Origin: Armatimonadota bacterium
GTDB lineage: Bacteria; Sysuimicrobiota; Sysuimicrobiia; Sysuimicrobiales; Sysuimicrobiaceae
Length of the DNA: 64,000 nt
Assembly (NCBI GenBank): GCA_031432545.1
Contig: JAVKGX010000001.1
Coordinates: 256,411-320,410 of the forward strand
Reading direction: 5' to 3'
Shown: positions 15,686 through 21,588 of the stretch, piece after piece
Position numbering within the stretch: position 1 is the stretch's first letter
Layout: every line of letters starts with the position of its first letter
Made by a program: the position numbers and the translations under genes
The notes under the pieces: model-generated
The model's database searches: none
Told to the model about the DNA's origin: nothing
Seen by the model: only the letters and a program-made list of their open reading frames with translations

Positions 15686-15703
15686 GCGCGTCGGCTACGC
15701 GCC
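15685..15703. terminator. Stem-loop between convergent genes
   Basis: GGCGCGT (15685-15691) pairs with ACGCGCC (15697-15703) around a 5-base loop. It lies exactly where the hydrolase (plus) and ACT protein (minus) genes converge. There is no T-tract on either strand, so it could be a weak bidirectional terminator or only a GC-rich hairpin. Confidence 0.35.
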
Positions 15704-16108
15704 GATGGCCCTCGCCGCTTCCTCGTAGTCCTGGGGTCTGACCCAGAGGATCATCCCGTAGCGGCCCCCACCGGCCGAGGTTGCCGCCGCCGCGACGATG
15801 TTGATTCCGGCATCGCCGAGTTTCTTGGCGTACTCCGCGGCCGCACCCACGCGGTCGTCCCCCCGGATCAAAAATGCCCGCTTGGGTCCGGTCAGCTGCC
15901 AGCCCGAGCGGTCCGCGACCGACCGCAGCGCCACGGCGTCCTCGGGTACAAGGTCGAGTTGGGCGTTGCCGCCCTCGACAGGGAACGCGAGATAGGCGAG
16001 GAGGTTCACGCCGCCTTCTCTGAGCGCCGAAAGCACCCGCGCTCCTTCGCCGGGTCTGTCCGGAACGGTCACGTAGTAGTAGTCGACCCGCCGCACCTCG
16101 TCGGCCAT
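15695..16108 (-). CDS. Tandem ACT-domain protein
   Basis: A 137-residue cytoplasmic protein made of two ACT domains (residues 1 to about 70 and 72 to 137). The first has VDYYYVTVPDRPGEGARVLS followed by GGVNLLAYLAFP. The second has AFLIRGDDRVGAAAEYAKKL followed by AGINIVAAAATSAGGG. ACT domains bind small ligands, usually amino acids. No catalytic domain is attached, so this is probably an allosteric or sensory subunit. Neighbours do not reveal the partner. A cacctcc complement gives a good ribosome site before the ATG at 16108. Confidence 0.8.
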   Translation of the reverse strand: MADEVRRVDYYYVTVPDRPGEGARVLSALREGGVNLLAYLAFPVEGGNAQLDLVPEDAVALRSVADRSGWQLTGPKRAFLIRGDDRVGAAAEYAKKLGDAGINIVAAAATSAGGGRYGMILWVRPQDYEEAARAIGA

Positions 16109-16246
16109 GGTTCACCTCCCGCAGGGCGTTCATTCGTCACCAGGATAGGGCGGATCGAGACCCGCTGTACACCGGCGCCGCGGATTGCCGCCCGAGCCCT
16201 GTGCGCCGACCGCATCCGGTGCTGGCGTCGCCTGCGCCGCAGGGTC

Positions 16247-16304
16247 TTGACAGCGGTGGCCGGGCAGTCTAGATTTAGCGAGTGCTAATTTAGTTGTGGC
16301 TAAA
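16247..16304 (+). promoter_or_regulatory. Metal-regulated promoter with two tandem MntR/DtxR-type operators
   Basis: A strong sigma70 promoter: TTGACA at 16247-16252, 17 bases, then TAGATT at 16270-16275. Two head-to-tail palindromes start within the -10 element and cover the transcription start. The first is TTTAGCGAGTGCTAAT (16274-16289), in which TTAGC/GCTAA pair. The second is TTTAGTTGTGGCTAAA (16289-16304), in which TTTAG/CTAAA pair. Both resemble the TTTAG...CTAAA half sites bound by DtxR/MntR repressors. The first gene downstream encodes such a repressor, so autoregulation of the whole metal-transport operon by metal-loaded repressor is the natural reading. Confidence 0.8.
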
Positions 16305-16314
16305 AGGCGCGCAG

Positions 16315-16986
16315 ATGATGACAGAACAGGTCACGCAGGCCACGCAGGACTACCTCAAGGTCATCTACAAGCTCGGCCAGGCCGGTGGCCCGGTGACGAC
16401 CAACGCCATCGCCGACCGCATGGGCGTGGCGCCGGCTTCGGTGACGAAGATGGTGAAGCGGCTCGCCAAGGACGGGCTGCTCACGCACACCCCCTATTAC
16501 GGCGTGCGCCTCACCGGCCGTGGGGAGCGGGCCGCGCTGGAGGTCATCCGCCACCACAGGCTGCTCGAACTGTACCTGACCCAGAGGCTCGGTCTGCCCA
16601 TCGACGAGGCGCACGCCGAGGCCGAACGGCTCGAACACGCGCTGTCGGAGGCCGTCGAGGAGCGGATCGCGCGGGTGCTGGGCAACCCCCGTTCGGACCC
16701 CCACGGCGACCCGATCCCGTCCGCCGACGGGGAGGTCGACGAACAGGTGCACCCAGCTCTCGCCGACGCCACACCCGGTCGCTCGGTCGTCGTCGCGCGC
16801 GTCAGCGACAGCGACCCCGTGCGCCTGAGGCGCATCGCCGCGCTGGGCCTGCTGCCCGGCGTGCGCGTCCGCGTGCTGTCCCGCTCGCCCGACGGCGGGG
16901 TCACGGTCCATGCCGGCGCGGGCCGAGCGCGCCGGGTCTCCGGGCGGGTGGCCCGTGGGATCTTCGTCCGGGAGGTGGCGGGTTGA
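16315..16986 (+). CDS. MntR/DtxR-family metal-dependent repressor
   Basis: A 223-residue regulator with a winged-helix domain (SVTKMVKRLAKDGLL recognition helix), a dimerisation/metal domain, and a C-terminal SH3-like FeoA domain (SVVVARVSDSDPVRLRRIA). Metal ligands follow the B. subtilis MntR set: Asp in TQDYLKVIY, His in RHHRLLELYL, and Glu/Glu/His in HAEAERLEH, where DtxR has Cys instead of the first Glu. This predicts a manganese (or Mn/Zn) sensor. ATG 16315 is chosen over the TTG at 16294, which lies inside the operator. It overlaps the binding-protein gene by 4 bases. Confidence 0.9.
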   Translation: MMTEQVTQATQDYLKVIYKLGQAGGPVTTNAIADRMGVAPASVTKMVKRLAKDGLLTHTPYYGVRLTGRGERAALEVIRHHRLLELYLTQRLGLPIDEAHAEAERLEHALSEAVEERIARVLGNPRSDPHGDPIPSADGEVDEQVHPALADATPGRSVVVARVSDSDPVRLRRIAALGLLPGVRVRVLSRSPDGGVTVHAGAGRARRVSGRVARGIFVREVAG

Positions 16987-17888
16987 CCGCACCCCGCCTC
17001 GCCGCCCTGTGGCTCGTGGCCGTGCTGGCTACCGGCTGCGCCGGGGAGTCCGCGAGCCCGGCCGCGCAGCGTCCGCGCGCGATCGCGACGATCAACATCC
17101 TCGCCGACTTCGCGCGCGGGGTCGCCGGCGACCGGATCGAGGTCAGCAGTCTGATCCCGGTGGGCGGCGACCCGCACACCTACGAGCCGGTCCCCCGCGA
17201 CGTCCAGAGGATCGCGGAGTCCCACATCCTCTTCTACAACGGGCTGGGCCTGGAAAAGTGGCTGCACAAACTGATCGCCAACGCCGGCGGACGGCGCGTC
17301 ATGGTCGAGGTCACGAGGGGGCTGCGGCCCGCGATCCAGACGAGCGGCGCGTACGCCGGCGACCCCGACCCGCACCTGTGGATGGACCCGCTGGCGGCCC
17401 GGACCTACGTCGAGAACATCCGCGACGCCCTGATCGCCTTCGACCCCGACGGCCGGAGCGCGTACGAGGCCAACGCCGCCCGCTACCTGCGGGAACTGGA
17501 CGAGCTGCACCGTTGGATCCAGCAGCAGGTGGCCCAGATCCCACCCGCGCGGCGGAAGCTGGTGACCACCCACGACGCGTTCCGCTACTTCGGGAATCGC
17601 TACGGCTTCGCGGTCGTCGGTACGATCTGGGGGATCAGCACGGAGGACGAACCGTCGGCGCAGGAGATCGCACGTCTGGTGGACAGCATCCGGCGGGAGC
17701 GGGTGCCCGCGGTGTTCGTCGAGACGACGATCAACCCCAAGCTGATGGAGCGCGTCGCCCGCGACGCCGGCGTGCGCGTCGGCCGCAGCCTGTACGGCGA
17801 CTCCCTCGGACCCCCGGGCAGCAACGCCGACACCTACGTCAAGATGATGCGGCACAACGTCGCCGCGATCGTGGAGGCGCTGCGATGA
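16983..17888 (+). CDS. Metal ABC transporter substrate-binding lipoprotein (ZnuA/TroA family)
   Basis: A 301-residue cluster A-I metal-binding protein. The signal peptide ends in a lipobox (VLATGCAG), so it is membrane-anchored. Four ligands can be placed: His in GGDPHTYEP, His in DPDPHLWMD, His in TTHDAFRYFG, and Asp in YGDSLGPPGS. Three His plus Asp is the TroA/ZnuA pattern; classic manganese proteins (PsaA/MntC) have Glu at the third position. There is no His-rich loop of the ZnuA kind. The TTG start overlaps the repressor stop (TTGA). Zinc or manganese are both possible. Confidence 0.9.
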   Translation: MTAPRLAALWLVAVLATGCAGESASPAAQRPRAIATINILADFARGVAGDRIEVSSLIPVGGDPHTYEPVPRDVQRIAESHILFYNGLGLEKWLHKLIANAGGRRVMVEVTRGLRPAIQTSGAYAGDPDPHLWMDPLAARTYVENIRDALIAFDPDGRSAYEANAARYLRELDELHRWIQQQVAQIPPARRKLVTTHDAFRYFGNRYGFAVVGTIWGISTEDEPSAQEIARLVDSIRRERVPAVFVETTINPKLMERVARDAGVRVGRSLYGDSLGPPGSNADTYVKMMRHNVAAIVEALR

Positions 17889-18682
17889 TTCCTTCAGACT
17901 TTCCGCGCACCCGGGAGCAGGACGCCGGCCCGCCCGCGATCGAGACCCGCAACCTGACGGTGTCGTACGGGGGCAAGCCGGCGATCCGCAACGTGACCCT
18001 CGCGATCGAGCCCGGGCGCCTGGTGGGGCTGGTGGGACCCAACGGCGCCGGCAAGTCGACGCTGCTGCGCGCCATCGTCGGCCTGCTCACACCGGACACC
18101 GGGCGGGTGGCGATCTTCGGCCAAAGCCCGCAGGCGGCGCGGCGACTGGTGGCGTATGTGCCGCAGCGCACCGAGGTGGACTGGGACTACCCCATCGTCG
18201 TCGAGGAGGTCGTGCTCATGGGCCGGTTCAACCACATCGGGTGGGTGCGCCGGCCGAGGGCGCTGGACCGGCAGGTCGCCGCGGAGTGTCTGCGGCGCGT
18301 GGGGATGGAGGCGTACGCGCAGCGCCAGATTGGACAGCTGTCCGGCGGCCAGCAGCAGCGCGTGTTCCTGGCCCGCGCGCTCGCGCAGGAGACCCCGATC
18401 ATGCTGCTCGACGAGCCGTTCGTCGGCGTGGACGCTGCCACCGAGGAAACGATCTACCGCCTGCTGGACGCCGCCAAGCAGGAGGGCCGCACCGTCGTCG
18501 TGGCGACCCACGACCTGAGCCGCGCGCAGACGGCGTTCGACCGGTTGGTCCTGCTCAACCAGTATCCGATCGCCTACGGGCCGCCGCAGGAGGTGTTCAC
18601 GCCGTCTCTGCTGCAGCGCACCTATGGCGGCCGTCTGACCCTGCTCGATGCCGCCGACCAGAGGATGGTGATCCGGCCGTGA
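17885..18682 (+). CDS. Metal ABC transporter ATPase
   Basis: A 265-residue ATPase of the Mn/Zn (MntB/ZnuC) family. It has Walker A GPNGAGKST, a Q-loop in VAYVPQRTEVDWDYP (the VDWDYP form is typical of Mn/Zn transporters), the signature LSGGQQQRVFLARAL, Walker B IMLLDEPFVGVD, and the switch ATHD. The ATG overlaps the previous stop (ATGA), and its stop overlaps the GTG of the permease (GTGA). This is the third of four coupled genes behind the metal-regulated promoter. Confidence 0.94.
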   Translation: MIPSDFPRTREQDAGPPAIETRNLTVSYGGKPAIRNVTLAIEPGRLVGLVGPNGAGKSTLLRAIVGLLTPDTGRVAIFGQSPQAARRLVAYVPQRTEVDWDYPIVVEEVVLMGRFNHIGWVRRPRALDRQVAAECLRRVGMEAYAQRQIGQLSGGQQQRVFLARALAQETPIMLLDEPFVGVDAATEETIYRLLDAAKQEGRTVVVATHDLSRAQTAFDRLVLLNQYPIAYGPPQEVFTPSLLQRTYGGRLTLLDAADQRMVIRP

Positions 18683-20196
18683 CGGCCCTGTACGACCTGT
18701 TCGTCAACCCCATGCAGTACGCGTTCATGCAGCGTGCGCTACTGGCGTCGCTGCTGGTCGGCACGATCTGCGCGGTGCTGAGCTGCTACCTGCTGGTCAA
18801 GCGGTGGGCCCTGCTCGGGGACGCGATCTCGCACTCTGTGCTGCCGGGCGTGGCGTTCGCGTACATGGCCGGCCTGCCGTTCTTCACCGGTGCGGTGGCC
18901 ACCGGCATGCTGACAGCGCTGGGCATCTCCGCGGTGGAGCGTCACACGCGCATCAAGGAAGACTCGGCGATGGGCATCATGTTCACCGGCGCGTTCGCGC
19001 TGGGGTTCGTGCTGGTCAGCCGCATCCGCAGCAAGAGCGTCGACCTTTTCCACATCCTGTTCGGCAACGTGTTGGGGGTCTTTGACGCGGACCTGATCCT
19101 CACCGCCGCGACCGGAGCCGTGGTGTTGGCGGTGGTGTTTGCGCTGTACAAGGAGCTCCAACTGTGGACGTTCGACCCGGTCGCCGCCGCGGCGATGGGA
19201 CTGCCGTCCGGCGTGCTCCACTATACGCTGATGCTGCTGCTGTCGATGACCATCGTGGCCTCCCTCCAGACGGTGGGCATCGTGCTCGTCGTCGCGATGC
19301 TTGTGACCCCCGGAGCGGTGGCATTCCTGCTGACGGACCGCATGTCGCGCATGCTCGGGATCGCGGTCGCCGTGGGCGTCGTGTCGGCGCTGAGCGGGCT
19401 GTTCCTCTCCTACCACCTCAACGTCGCCTCCGGCGCGACGATGGTTCTAGTCGCGACGGTCGTGTTCGCGTGCGCGATGCTGCTCAGTCCCCGCGAGGGG
19501 ATCGTGTGGTCGGCGATCCGGCGGCGCCGCGTGGTCTACCTCACGGCGCTGGAGGACTTCTTGAAGCAGGCGTACGTCCTGGACCGCCAGGGGGAGGCGA
19601 CGATCGCGGCCGTCGCGGAGAGATTGGGCACGGGGCTGCGGCAGGCGCGCAGCGCGCTGCGGCGGCTGGCGCGTGAAGGGCTGGCAGACCCCTCCGACGG
19701 CGTGGTGCGCCTGACCGACGCCGGCCGCGCGCGGGCGCAGGAACTGATCCGGTCGCATCGCCTGTGGGAGCGCTACCTGGTGGACGCAGGCGGGCTGTCG
19801 TGGGCGGAAGTGCACGCCGAGGCGGAACGCCTGGAACACCTCGGCACGCGCGAACTGGCCGCGAGGCTGGACGAGGTGCTGGGCCGTCCGGAACACGACC
19901 CGCACGGCGCGCGCATCCCGCGGGCCGGGCAGGACCCAGAACTCCGTGCGGAGCCGCTTGCAGCCCGGCGCATCGGAGACACCGTCGAGGTGGCCGAGGT
20001 GGAAGACGAAGACCCCGACGTGCTGCGCCGGCTCGACGAGAAGGGCATGCGCCCCGGCGCGCGCGTCCACGTCCTGCACAGAAGGCAAGACGGGACCCTG
20101 CGGGTTCGCGTCGACGGCCGGGAGGAAGAAATCGACCCAGCGTTGTCCGACGTCGTGCTGACCCGGCCGGCCGGGGGGACTTCTCGCAACCTTTGA
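18679..20196 (+). CDS. Metal ABC permease fused to a complete MntR-like module
   Basis: A 505-residue two-part protein. Residues 1 to about 280 are an ABC-3 family Mn/Zn permease with about eight segments (KRWALLGDAISHSVLPGVA; LQTVGIVLVVAMLVTPGAVA). Residues 285-505 are a DtxR/MntR-like unit: winged helix (LEDFLKQAYVLDRQGEATIA; ARSALRRLAREGL), metal/dimer domain (RSHRLWERYLV; HAEAERLEH) and FeoA-like domain (GDTVEVAEVEDEDPDVLRRL). The Mn ligands (Asp, His, Glu, Glu, His) are all present. The join is in frame with no stop. The cytoplasmic module could sense metal and gate transport, or bind DNA from the membrane; neither is shown. Related fusions probably exist in databases. Confidence 0.88.
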   Translation: MTALYDLFVNPMQYAFMQRALLASLLVGTICAVLSCYLLVKRWALLGDAISHSVLPGVAFAYMAGLPFFTGAVATGMLTALGISAVERHTRIKEDSAMGIMFTGAFALGFVLVSRIRSKSVDLFHILFGNVLGVFDADLILTAATGAVVLAVVFALYKELQLWTFDPVAAAAMGLPSGVLHYTLMLLLSMTIVASLQTVGIVLVVAMLVTPGAVAFLLTDRMSRMLGIAVAVGVVSALSGLFLSYHLNVASGATMVLVATVVFACAMLLSPREGIVWSAIRRRRVVYLTALEDFLKQAYVLDRQGEATIAAVAERLGTGLRQARSALRRLAREGLADPSDGVVRLTDAGRARAQELIRSHRLWERYLVDAGGLSWAEVHAEAERLEHLGTRELAARLDEVLGRPEHDPHGARIPRAGQDPELRAEPLAARRIGDTVEVAEVEDEDPDVLRRLDEKGMRPGARVHVLHRRQDGTLRVRVDGREEEIDPALSDVVLTRPAGGTSRNL

Positions 20197-20286
20197 GCGG
20201 TCGCCAGACAGCCCTGCGATCCTCCCGGCTCCGGGTAGACGCTCTGTTGGAACCGTCGGCTTGACCCCGGTTGTGGGCCGCTGCCA

Positions 20287-20295
20287 TGCTATGTT
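20287..20295 (+). promoter_or_regulatory. Possible extended -10 promoter of the sugar ABC operon
   Basis: TGC followed by TATGTT (20287-20295) forms an extended -10 about 13 bases before the ATG. A TTGACC lies upstream at 20261 but 23 bases away, too far for a normal -35. If used, the leader would be only a few bases long. The remaining part of the 111-base gap shows nothing else. Confidence 0.3.
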
Positions 20296-20307
20296 CGGAG
20301 AGGGGGG

Positions 20308-21588
20308 ATGACGATGCCACGCAGGCGCGCACTGTTCGTCGCCGCCGTCGTGATCGTCGTCGTCGCGGCGGTCGCACTCTACCAGGTCAGTCGGATGCGG
20401 GCTCCGGCACCGCCGGCCGCGAGGCTGGAGATCTTCTCATGGTGGACCACGGGGGGCGAGGAGGCCGGACTGTTGAAGCTGTTCGAGCTGTACCGGCAGC
20501 AGAACCCCGGCGTGGAGATCATCAACGCCACCGTGGCGGGTGGGGCGGGCTTTGAGGCCAAACCCGCCCTCAAGGCGCGGATGCTGGGGGGCGACCCGCC
20601 GGACTCATTCCAGGTCCACATGGGCCGCGAGTTGATCGACACCTGGGTCGTGACCGGATACATGGAGCCGCTGAACGACCTGTACGCGCAGGAAGGATGG
20701 GAACAGGTCTTCCCGGCCGGCGTGCTGGGCCTGCTGCGGCACGAGGGCAGCTACTGGTCGGTGCCGGTGAACATTCACCGCGCCAACGTATTGTGGTACA
20801 ACAAGCGGACTTTCGAGGAGAACGGCTGGAAGCCGCCGGAGACCTTCGACGACTTCTTCGCCCTCGCAGAGCAGATGCGCGCCAAGGGCATCACCCCGCT
20901 GGCGTTGGGGGACGTCGGCATCTGGGCGTCGGTGCACCTGTTCGAAGTCGTGCTGGCCGGCGTGCTGGGCCCGGACGCGTACAGCGGTCTGTGGACCGGC
21001 GCAACCGACTGGAACGGCCCGGAGGTCCGGCGCGCGCTGGAGATCATGGCGCGCATGCTCACCTACGTCAACCCGGATCACTCGGCGCTGTCGTGGGATC
21101 AGGCCAACGACCTGGTGATCCAGGGCCGCGCGGGGATGACGATCATGGGCGACTGGGTGGACGCCGACAACCTCGCCAAGAACTTCCGGGATTCGGGTTG
21201 GGCGCCGCCGCCGGGCACACGAGGCGTCTTCGTGGCGCTGTCCGATACCTTCGGCCTGCCCAAGAACGCACCCCACCGCGACCAGGCGATCGCCTGGCTG
21301 CGGCTGGTGGGGTCTAGGGCCGGGCAGGAGGCGTTCAATCCCGTCAAGGGCTCGATCTGCGCGCGCAACGACTGCGACCCGGCCCTGTTCGGCCCGTACC
21401 TGCAGTCGGCGATGCAGGACTGGGCGCGGGACCGGATCGTGCCGAGCCTGGCCCACGGGGCGGCGGCGTCCGAGTCCTGGGTGGCCCTGATCAACGACGT
21501 GATGAGCGCCTTCGTCAGCGATCGCGACGTGGCCAAGGCCCAGGCCGCGCTGGCAAAGGCCTGCGTCGACGCGCGGGTGTGCCGCTGA
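20308..21588 (+). CDS. Carbohydrate ABC transporter substrate-binding protein
   Basis: A 426-residue family-1 (MalE/UgpB-like) extracellular binding protein. An N-terminal hydrophobic stretch (RRRALFVAAVVIVVVAAVAL) lacks a lipobox cysteine, so it acts as a signal or membrane anchor. The mature part starts LEIFSWWTTGGEEAGLLKLF, a typical beginning for sugar binders, and contains NIHRANVLWYNKRTFEENGW. Cys residues in SICARNDCDP and the C-terminus (CVDARVC) may form disulfides. ATG 20308 has agagggggg upstream. It is followed by two permeases and no ATPase. Confidence 0.92.
   Translation: MTMPRRRALFVAAVVIVVVAAVALYQVSRMRAPAPPAARLEIFSWWTTGGEEAGLLKLFELYRQQNPGVEIINATVAGGAGFEAKPALKARMLGGDPPDSFQVHMGRELIDTWVVTGYMEPLNDLYAQEGWEQVFPAGVLGLLRHEGSYWSVPVNIHRANVLWYNKRTFEENGWKPPETFDDFFALAEQMRAKGITPLALGDVGIWASVHLFEVVLAGVLGPDAYSGLWTGATDWNGPEVRRALEIMARMLTYVNPDHSALSWDQANDLVIQGRAGMTIMGDWVDADNLAKNFRDSGWAPPPGTRGVFVALSDTFGLPKNAPHRDQAIAWLRLVGSRAGQEAFNPVKGSICARNDCDPALFGPYLQSAMQDWARDRIVPSLAHGAAASESWVALINDVMSAFVSDRDVAKAQAALAKACVDARVCR

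Follow-up and report, generated by a model that had tools for sequence, protein, structure and literature searches.

A DtxR/MntR-derived module on an ABC-3 metal permease that appears to have kept its metal site and lost its DNA-reading residues, with a possible role in transport control

Why should the permease of a metal importer end in a repressor-like metal sensor, when its operon already opens with a free repressor of the same family? The question is raised by an operon in the window, by which we mean the whole stretch of 64,000 nucleotides that was analysed. A sequence-only reading had offered two functions for the fused module: closure of transport when the cytoplasm is replete with metal, or repressor-like DNA binding held at the membrane. 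The former, as a proposal about function, is the better supported, for the metal ligands are kept, the DNA-reading surface is lost, and the helix that joins module to permease is of fixed length; the latter is disfavoured on the same observations. The operon and the sequence before it are as follows.

16247..16275, + strand: sigma-70-like promoter, TTGACA-17-TAGATT, from a search for promoter-like sites
16273..16304, + strand: two abutting MntR/DtxR-type inverted repeats, TTAGC-gagt-GCTAA and TTTAG-ttgtgg-CTAAA; putative operator
16315..16986, + strand: free MntR/DtxR-type repressor, 223 aa (PF01325, PF02742, FeoA), with DNA-reading residues intact and an alternative upstream TTG start at 16294
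16983..17888, + strand: ZnuA/PsaA-type substrate-binding protein (PF01297, E 3e-94), whose TTG start overlaps the repressor stop
17885..18682, + strand: ABC ATPase (PF00005; best NCBIfam match MntA of the Deinococcus type), with an ATGA overlap with the preceding gene
18679..20196, + strand: fused permease-sensor gene, 505 codons, whose GTG start overlaps the ATPase stop

The order is thus free MntR, PsaA/MntA-like binding protein, ATPase and fused permease, with overlapping start and stop codons throughout, and the presence of a PF00950 ABC-3 permease domain, a binding protein and an ATPase in one operon identifies an ABC-3 (PsaC/MntB/ZnuB) metal permease system. The binding protein finds its best NCBIfam match in MntC and its nearest solved chain in the Mn-binding MntA 5hx7, which points to Mn(II). 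The ATPase (P0003, 265 aa) has no regulatory domain recognised by Pfam. Since there is a single permease gene, the permease is expected to form a homodimer, with two modules per transporter. No other promoter-like site was found in 16100-20400 (4.3 kb), where shuffles would give 0.1 against the one observed. The inverted repeats adjoining this promoter are conserved in position in 7/7 genomes of the window's family and match no other site in the 2.19 Mb genome at three or fewer mismatches. Judged by sequence, the repeats are likely the operator of the free MntR. The free MntR-type repressor that had been placed at the start of the operon is thus present as described, and is accompanied by a conserved, genome-unique operator-like site. 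A small ORF that by eye is ACT-domain-like (15695-16108, − strand) diverges from the operon.

Is the fusion real? The gene is a single unbroken ORF with no frame break in the window. A frame break or mis-assembly near 19520 was considered and rejected, as the frame is free of stops and the fusion recurs in all seven genomes of the family, which were separately assembled. Residue numbers here follow P0001, the fused protein minus its start residue, so that the full protein is numbered one higher. The parts of the gene are listed below.

18715..19485, + strand: ABC-3 permease domain (residues 12-268; Pfam, and Foldseek to PsaBC 7kyp, TM-score 0.84-0.90 on target length)
19501..19587, + strand: continuous Arg-rich coupling helix (274-302) that links the last membrane helix to the module, where it becomes alpha1 (AlphaFold2; G273-to-292 spacing)
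19555-19557, + strand: codon of ligand D292, within the coupling helix
19603..19716, + strand: winged helix-turn-helix (308-345), fold kept in the AlphaFold2 model, DNA-reading residues lost, recognition helix and wing diverged
19717..19923, + strand: metal-binding/dimerisation domain (346-414; PF02742 and conservation), ligands H359, E363, H378, E382, E385 and H386
19954..20169, + strand: FeoA/SH3-like domain (425-496; PF04023 and AlphaFold2 strands), optional in relatives

Pfam assigns residues 12-268 to ABC-3 (E 2e-83), 345-414 to Fe_dep_repr_C (PF02742; E 3e-25, 88 bits against a 27-bit cut-off) and 425-487 to FeoA (E 3e-11), and the claim that permease and MntR-like module share one gene holds. 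The claimed winged helix is present as a fold in the AlphaFold2 model; the DtxR HTH family model PF01325, which matches the free MntR (P0002), has no Pfam match in P0001. By the marks of a DtxR/MntR repressor, then, the fused module has PF02742 and lacks the N-terminal PF01325, though its fold there is that of a winged helix. The model (40 homologues, pLDDT 91.2) shows the expected domains: a membrane domain, the long helix 274-302, a winged helix at 308-344, a helical dimer domain at 346-399 and a beta-rich SH3/FeoA domain at 434-496. Foldseek, run on an earlier AlphaFold2 model (13 homologues, pLDDT 80), placed PsaBC 7kyp at the top, followed by Mn-bound MntR 5zr6 and IdeR structures; the nearest repressors to the module by structure are D. 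radiodurans MntR 5zr4/5zr6.

It had also been said that every MntR-type ligand is present. By the offsets of the NCBIfam B. subtilis MntR model, the five that were listed (Asp, His, Glu, Glu, His) are indeed there, as D292 (Asp8), H359 (His77), E382 (Glu99), E385 (Glu102) and H386 (His103); the sixth, Glu11, is replaced by lysine. The same replacement is found in the alignment columns of both proteins (K295 in the fused, Lys15 in the free repressor). The HAEAERLEH that the two have in common is a family motif.

The domain search that had been suggested found the fusion in several phyla. It occurs in 9/43 genomes of the window's own phylum, all of one order: the seven of the window's family and two of another. 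A profile made from fusions found it in at least about 70/294 genomes of Planctomycetota, about 37/289 of Verrucomicrobiota, 7/274 of Gammaproteobacteria and one or two of 296 Spirochaetota, these counts being lower bounds, made by eye from matches that cover both permease and module, with the best candidates per genome scored. The FeoA domain is present in 11 of 40 fused proteins. Mapping of 46 loci placed a free DtxR/MntR gene on the same stretch as the fused permease in 32 of them; several of the other loci end at a contig edge. About ten loci have a two-permease operon with a module on each permease, which implies that the modules form a heterodimer; a DtxR-derived module is seen on both subunits at L012:4649-7323, L202, L205, L206, L209-L211 and L215-L217. 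In many other two-permease operons only one permease has a module.

What has selection kept in the fused module? We compared 56 fused with 34 free modules drawn from the same loci, the free ones having been selected with a profile made from fusions, a bias that does not favour the loss of DNA reading described here. All five metal ligands are complete in 50/56 fused modules; H359, E363, E385 and H386 hardly vary among the fused modules, which have E, D or H at position 382. The motif HRLWE, with Trp362, is found in 56/56 fused and 0/34 free modules. At eight DNA-reading positions the fused modules keep 0-4 residues (46/56 keep none or one), and the free modules keep 4-8 (26/34 keep seven or eight). 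Likewise, PF01325 matches 1/40 fused proteins against 30/30 neighbouring free repressors, and PF02742 matches all of both sets (40 fused, 30 free).

A paired comparison is provided by the fused and free copies of the same seven genomes, which have had equal time to diverge. Mean identity is 0.43 in the fused against 0.89 in the free copies for the recognition helix, 0.45 against 0.89 for the wing and 0.54 against 0.71 for alpha1; for the metal/dimer domain it is 0.81 against 0.78, and for FeoA 0.62 against 0.60, with the permease domain at 0.73. A permutation test of HTH against dimer columns gives p = 1e-5 for this contrast. Taken across some 50 operons, the comparison of sequences suggests that the fused module has kept its grip on metal and lost DNA reading. 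It is the standard DNA-reading residues that are lost, and the fused modules may still bind other DNA. Their helix surface is basic (mean net charge +2.8). At three loci (L209:6135-7412, L210:6139-7362 and L211:7217-8431), and in the partner permeases there, the metal ligands are degraded and the Trp of HRLWE is retained.

Was the module copied from the MntR of its own operon? In a tree built on alpha1 and dimer columns, which are few, a tree that is unrooted and has some long branches, a single branch parts all fused from all free modules (SH-aLRT 96), and the dimer domain alone gives the same split (SH-aLRT 73). Fused modules from five phyla cluster together, apart from all 34 free repressors, so the shared HAEAERLEH gives no sign of copying, and recent copying from the operon's own MntR is unsupported. 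The history of the permeases is less tidy. In the permease tree the fusion permease domains are spread over several clades that also contain plain permeases, and 8 state changes are needed, at least 5 of them forced by strong branches. This tree does not single out one clean origin of the fused permeases, as it cannot separate gains from losses; on the sequences, an ancient fusion followed by losses and a transfer of tails are both possible.

The most regular feature of these proteins is the linker. From the invariant G273 to the ligand position 292 in alpha1 there are exactly 20 residues in 97/97 fusions, and the same 20 in 18/18 tails that consist of the winged helix only, even though loops elsewhere in these proteins vary. 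In the AlphaFold2 model the linker is part of the single unbroken Arg-rich helix 274-302 (block pLDDT above 90). A flexible or cleaved tether should vary in length; a helix that transmits movement should not. The tails that have the winged helix and no metal domain (L024:1474-2562 on the − strand, L094, L099, L100, L103-L107, L109 and L114, and further L116, L118, L129, L135 and L182) mostly share a conserved W(S/T) motif and are common in the Spirochaetota sample.

How might such a module act? Metal binding in MntR and DtxR links alpha1 to the dimer domain. In the fused protein alpha1 prolongs the helix that extends from the last membrane helix, and filling of the site with metal could therefore lock the permease, most simply by bringing the homodimer's two modules together. 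We think it reasonably likely, though well short of assured, that the module is a metal sensor coupled to the transporter rather than a repressor, and that it would serve trans-inhibition. The ABC importer, for Mn(II) or possibly Fe(II), would then have two metal sensors that work separately. Transcription of the operon would be repressed by the free MntR (16315-16986) through the operator at 16273-16304. The sensor at the C terminus of the permease would be an old DtxR/MntR-derived domain in which metal binding and probably dimerisation are kept and DNA reading is gone; it would face the cytoplasm, carried by a rigid helix that leads unbroken from the last membrane helix to the metal site. 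Cytosolic metal would fill the site and clamp alpha1 (D292) to the dimer domain (H359, E382, E385, H386), the two modules of the permease homodimer would pair, the transporter would be locked, and import would stop. In this scheme it is metal occupancy, the pairing of modules in one transporter, the direction of inhibition, the identity of the metal and the binding of MntR to its operator that we infer. Trans-inhibition by dimerising C-terminal domains has a precedent in MetNI and ModBC (PMC10710835). Pairing inside one transporter cannot be general, given the many two-permease operons with one module. Some tails lack the metal part and the ligands of L209-L211 are degraded, which speaks against pure sensing, so the tail does more than sense.

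One would think first of the Chlamydia trachomatis protein YtgCR, a permease whose C-terminal DtxR-like domain is released by cleavage as YtgR, an iron-dependent repressor (PMC5599777; PMC7755916). In 2012 permease-repressor fusions were described from 11 phyla, and the Chlamydia authors proposed the same mode for them (PMC5599777). YtgCR is the one studied relative and it does act as a repressor, which is a real counterpoint to trans-inhibition. Its cleavage and metal-dependent repression have been shown, the architecture is the same, and the window's module keeps the winged-helix fold in the model and the fused set its basic helix surface. Could the module here, freed by proteolysis or still attached, be a metal-dependent transcriptional repressor as well? 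We think this unlikely. The fused modules have lost both the PF01325 signature and the residues that read DNA; their recognition helix varies more than any other part, while that of the free copy is its best conserved part; and the operon already has a free repressor with an operator-like site of its own; the invariant linker, unusual for a cleaved tether, also argues against it, though not decisively.

The tail might instead stabilise or assemble the transporter, through permease-permease or permease-ATPase contact, with a metal that is structural and not regulatory. The winged-helix-only tails, with the same 20-residue linker and mostly conserved W motif, speak for such a role, as do the degraded ligands of some fusions; together with the one-module heterodimers, they suggest that the winged helix also docks or assembles. 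As the whole explanation, however, a structural tail seems to us improbable, because it would need neither the complete ligands seen in 50/56 fusions nor a metal domain that changes as slowly as that of the free sensor. Another thought is that the module, lying at the cytoplasmic exit of the channel, takes the ion and passes it on, or that contacts of the FeoA domain present in the window's protein stimulate transport, with no inhibition in either case. FeoA is missing from most fused relatives, however, and the ligand set is that of an MntR-type equilibrium sensor, and we regard this last explanation as very unlikely.

How does trans-inhibition by a permease-borne sensor sit among known systems? 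YtgCR (CT069/CTL0325), compared here by its published description, is likewise encoded in a metal-importer operon and joins an ABC-type metal permease to a DtxR-like module at its C terminus, and the window's module has DtxR-type ligands; the architecture of a permease-DtxR fusion is not new. The differences are that YtgCR's module is cleaved, represses DNA and has been called the only iron-dependent regulator identified, whereas the window's operon has a free MntR with its own operator-like site, and its module has lost the DNA-reading residues and includes FeoA/SH3. A literature search for other permease-DtxR fusions returned the Chlamydia work only. With MntR, DtxR and IdeR the module shares the winged helix, the metal/dimer domain, SH3/FeoA and five of six MntR ligands; it differs in being attached to a permease, in its diverged recognition helix and wing, and in the HRLWE Trp that is invariant in fused modules. 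The permease is like the PsaBC/MntB type (7kyp) in fold and sequence, with about 39% identity over the Foldseek alignment, and unlike it in having some 230 extra cytoplasmic residues. The window's system shares with MetNI and ModBC a dimerising domain at a cytoplasmic C terminus that should bind the substrate brought in and inhibit transport; those importers carry their regulatory domain, which is of unrelated fold, on the ATPase, and inhibition has been shown for them, whereas here the domain is on the permease and inhibition is proposed.

The fusion, then, is real and widespread and its architecture known; what is new is a form that apparently does not read DNA, is length-locked, and stands alongside a separate MntR. 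Trans-inhibition of ABC importers is known for a few substrates only, and in MetNI and ModBC it is the ATPase that carries the sensor. If the proposal is right, feedback on Mn/Fe/Zn uptake would sit in the permease of many importers of the PVC group, Armatimonadota-like bacteria, spirochaetes and gammaproteobacteria, and a transcription factor would have become a channel regulator, its DNA-reading surface abandoned. Do these proteins form one large, cross-phylum family of ABC metal importers, trans-inhibited by a permease-fused, repressor-derived sensor with DNA binding lost, a length-locked helix and a separate MntR, so that the fusions of the 11 phyla are mostly transport valves and YtgCR the exception? 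We hold this to be evenly poised. The findings do question the extension of the cleaved-repressor model of YtgCR to all permease-DtxR fusions, and the free and fused copies of one module, side by side, offer a clean control within the genome.

Other members of these families in the window's genome deserve mention. One DtxR-like protein (L004, G000:C5:90380-90562), with counterparts in the family's six other genomes, has an intact-looking winged helix and lacks the His77, Glu102 and His103 ligands (FERGMT there), and is in this the reverse of the fused module. The genome also encodes a second ABC-3 permease (G000:C1:375561-376337), plain and tailless, with 33% identity. A separate IdeR/DtxR-type repressor (L002, G000:C6:31206-31868) carries the Cys-type ligand motif EACKMEH, and is probably the iron regulator of this genome.
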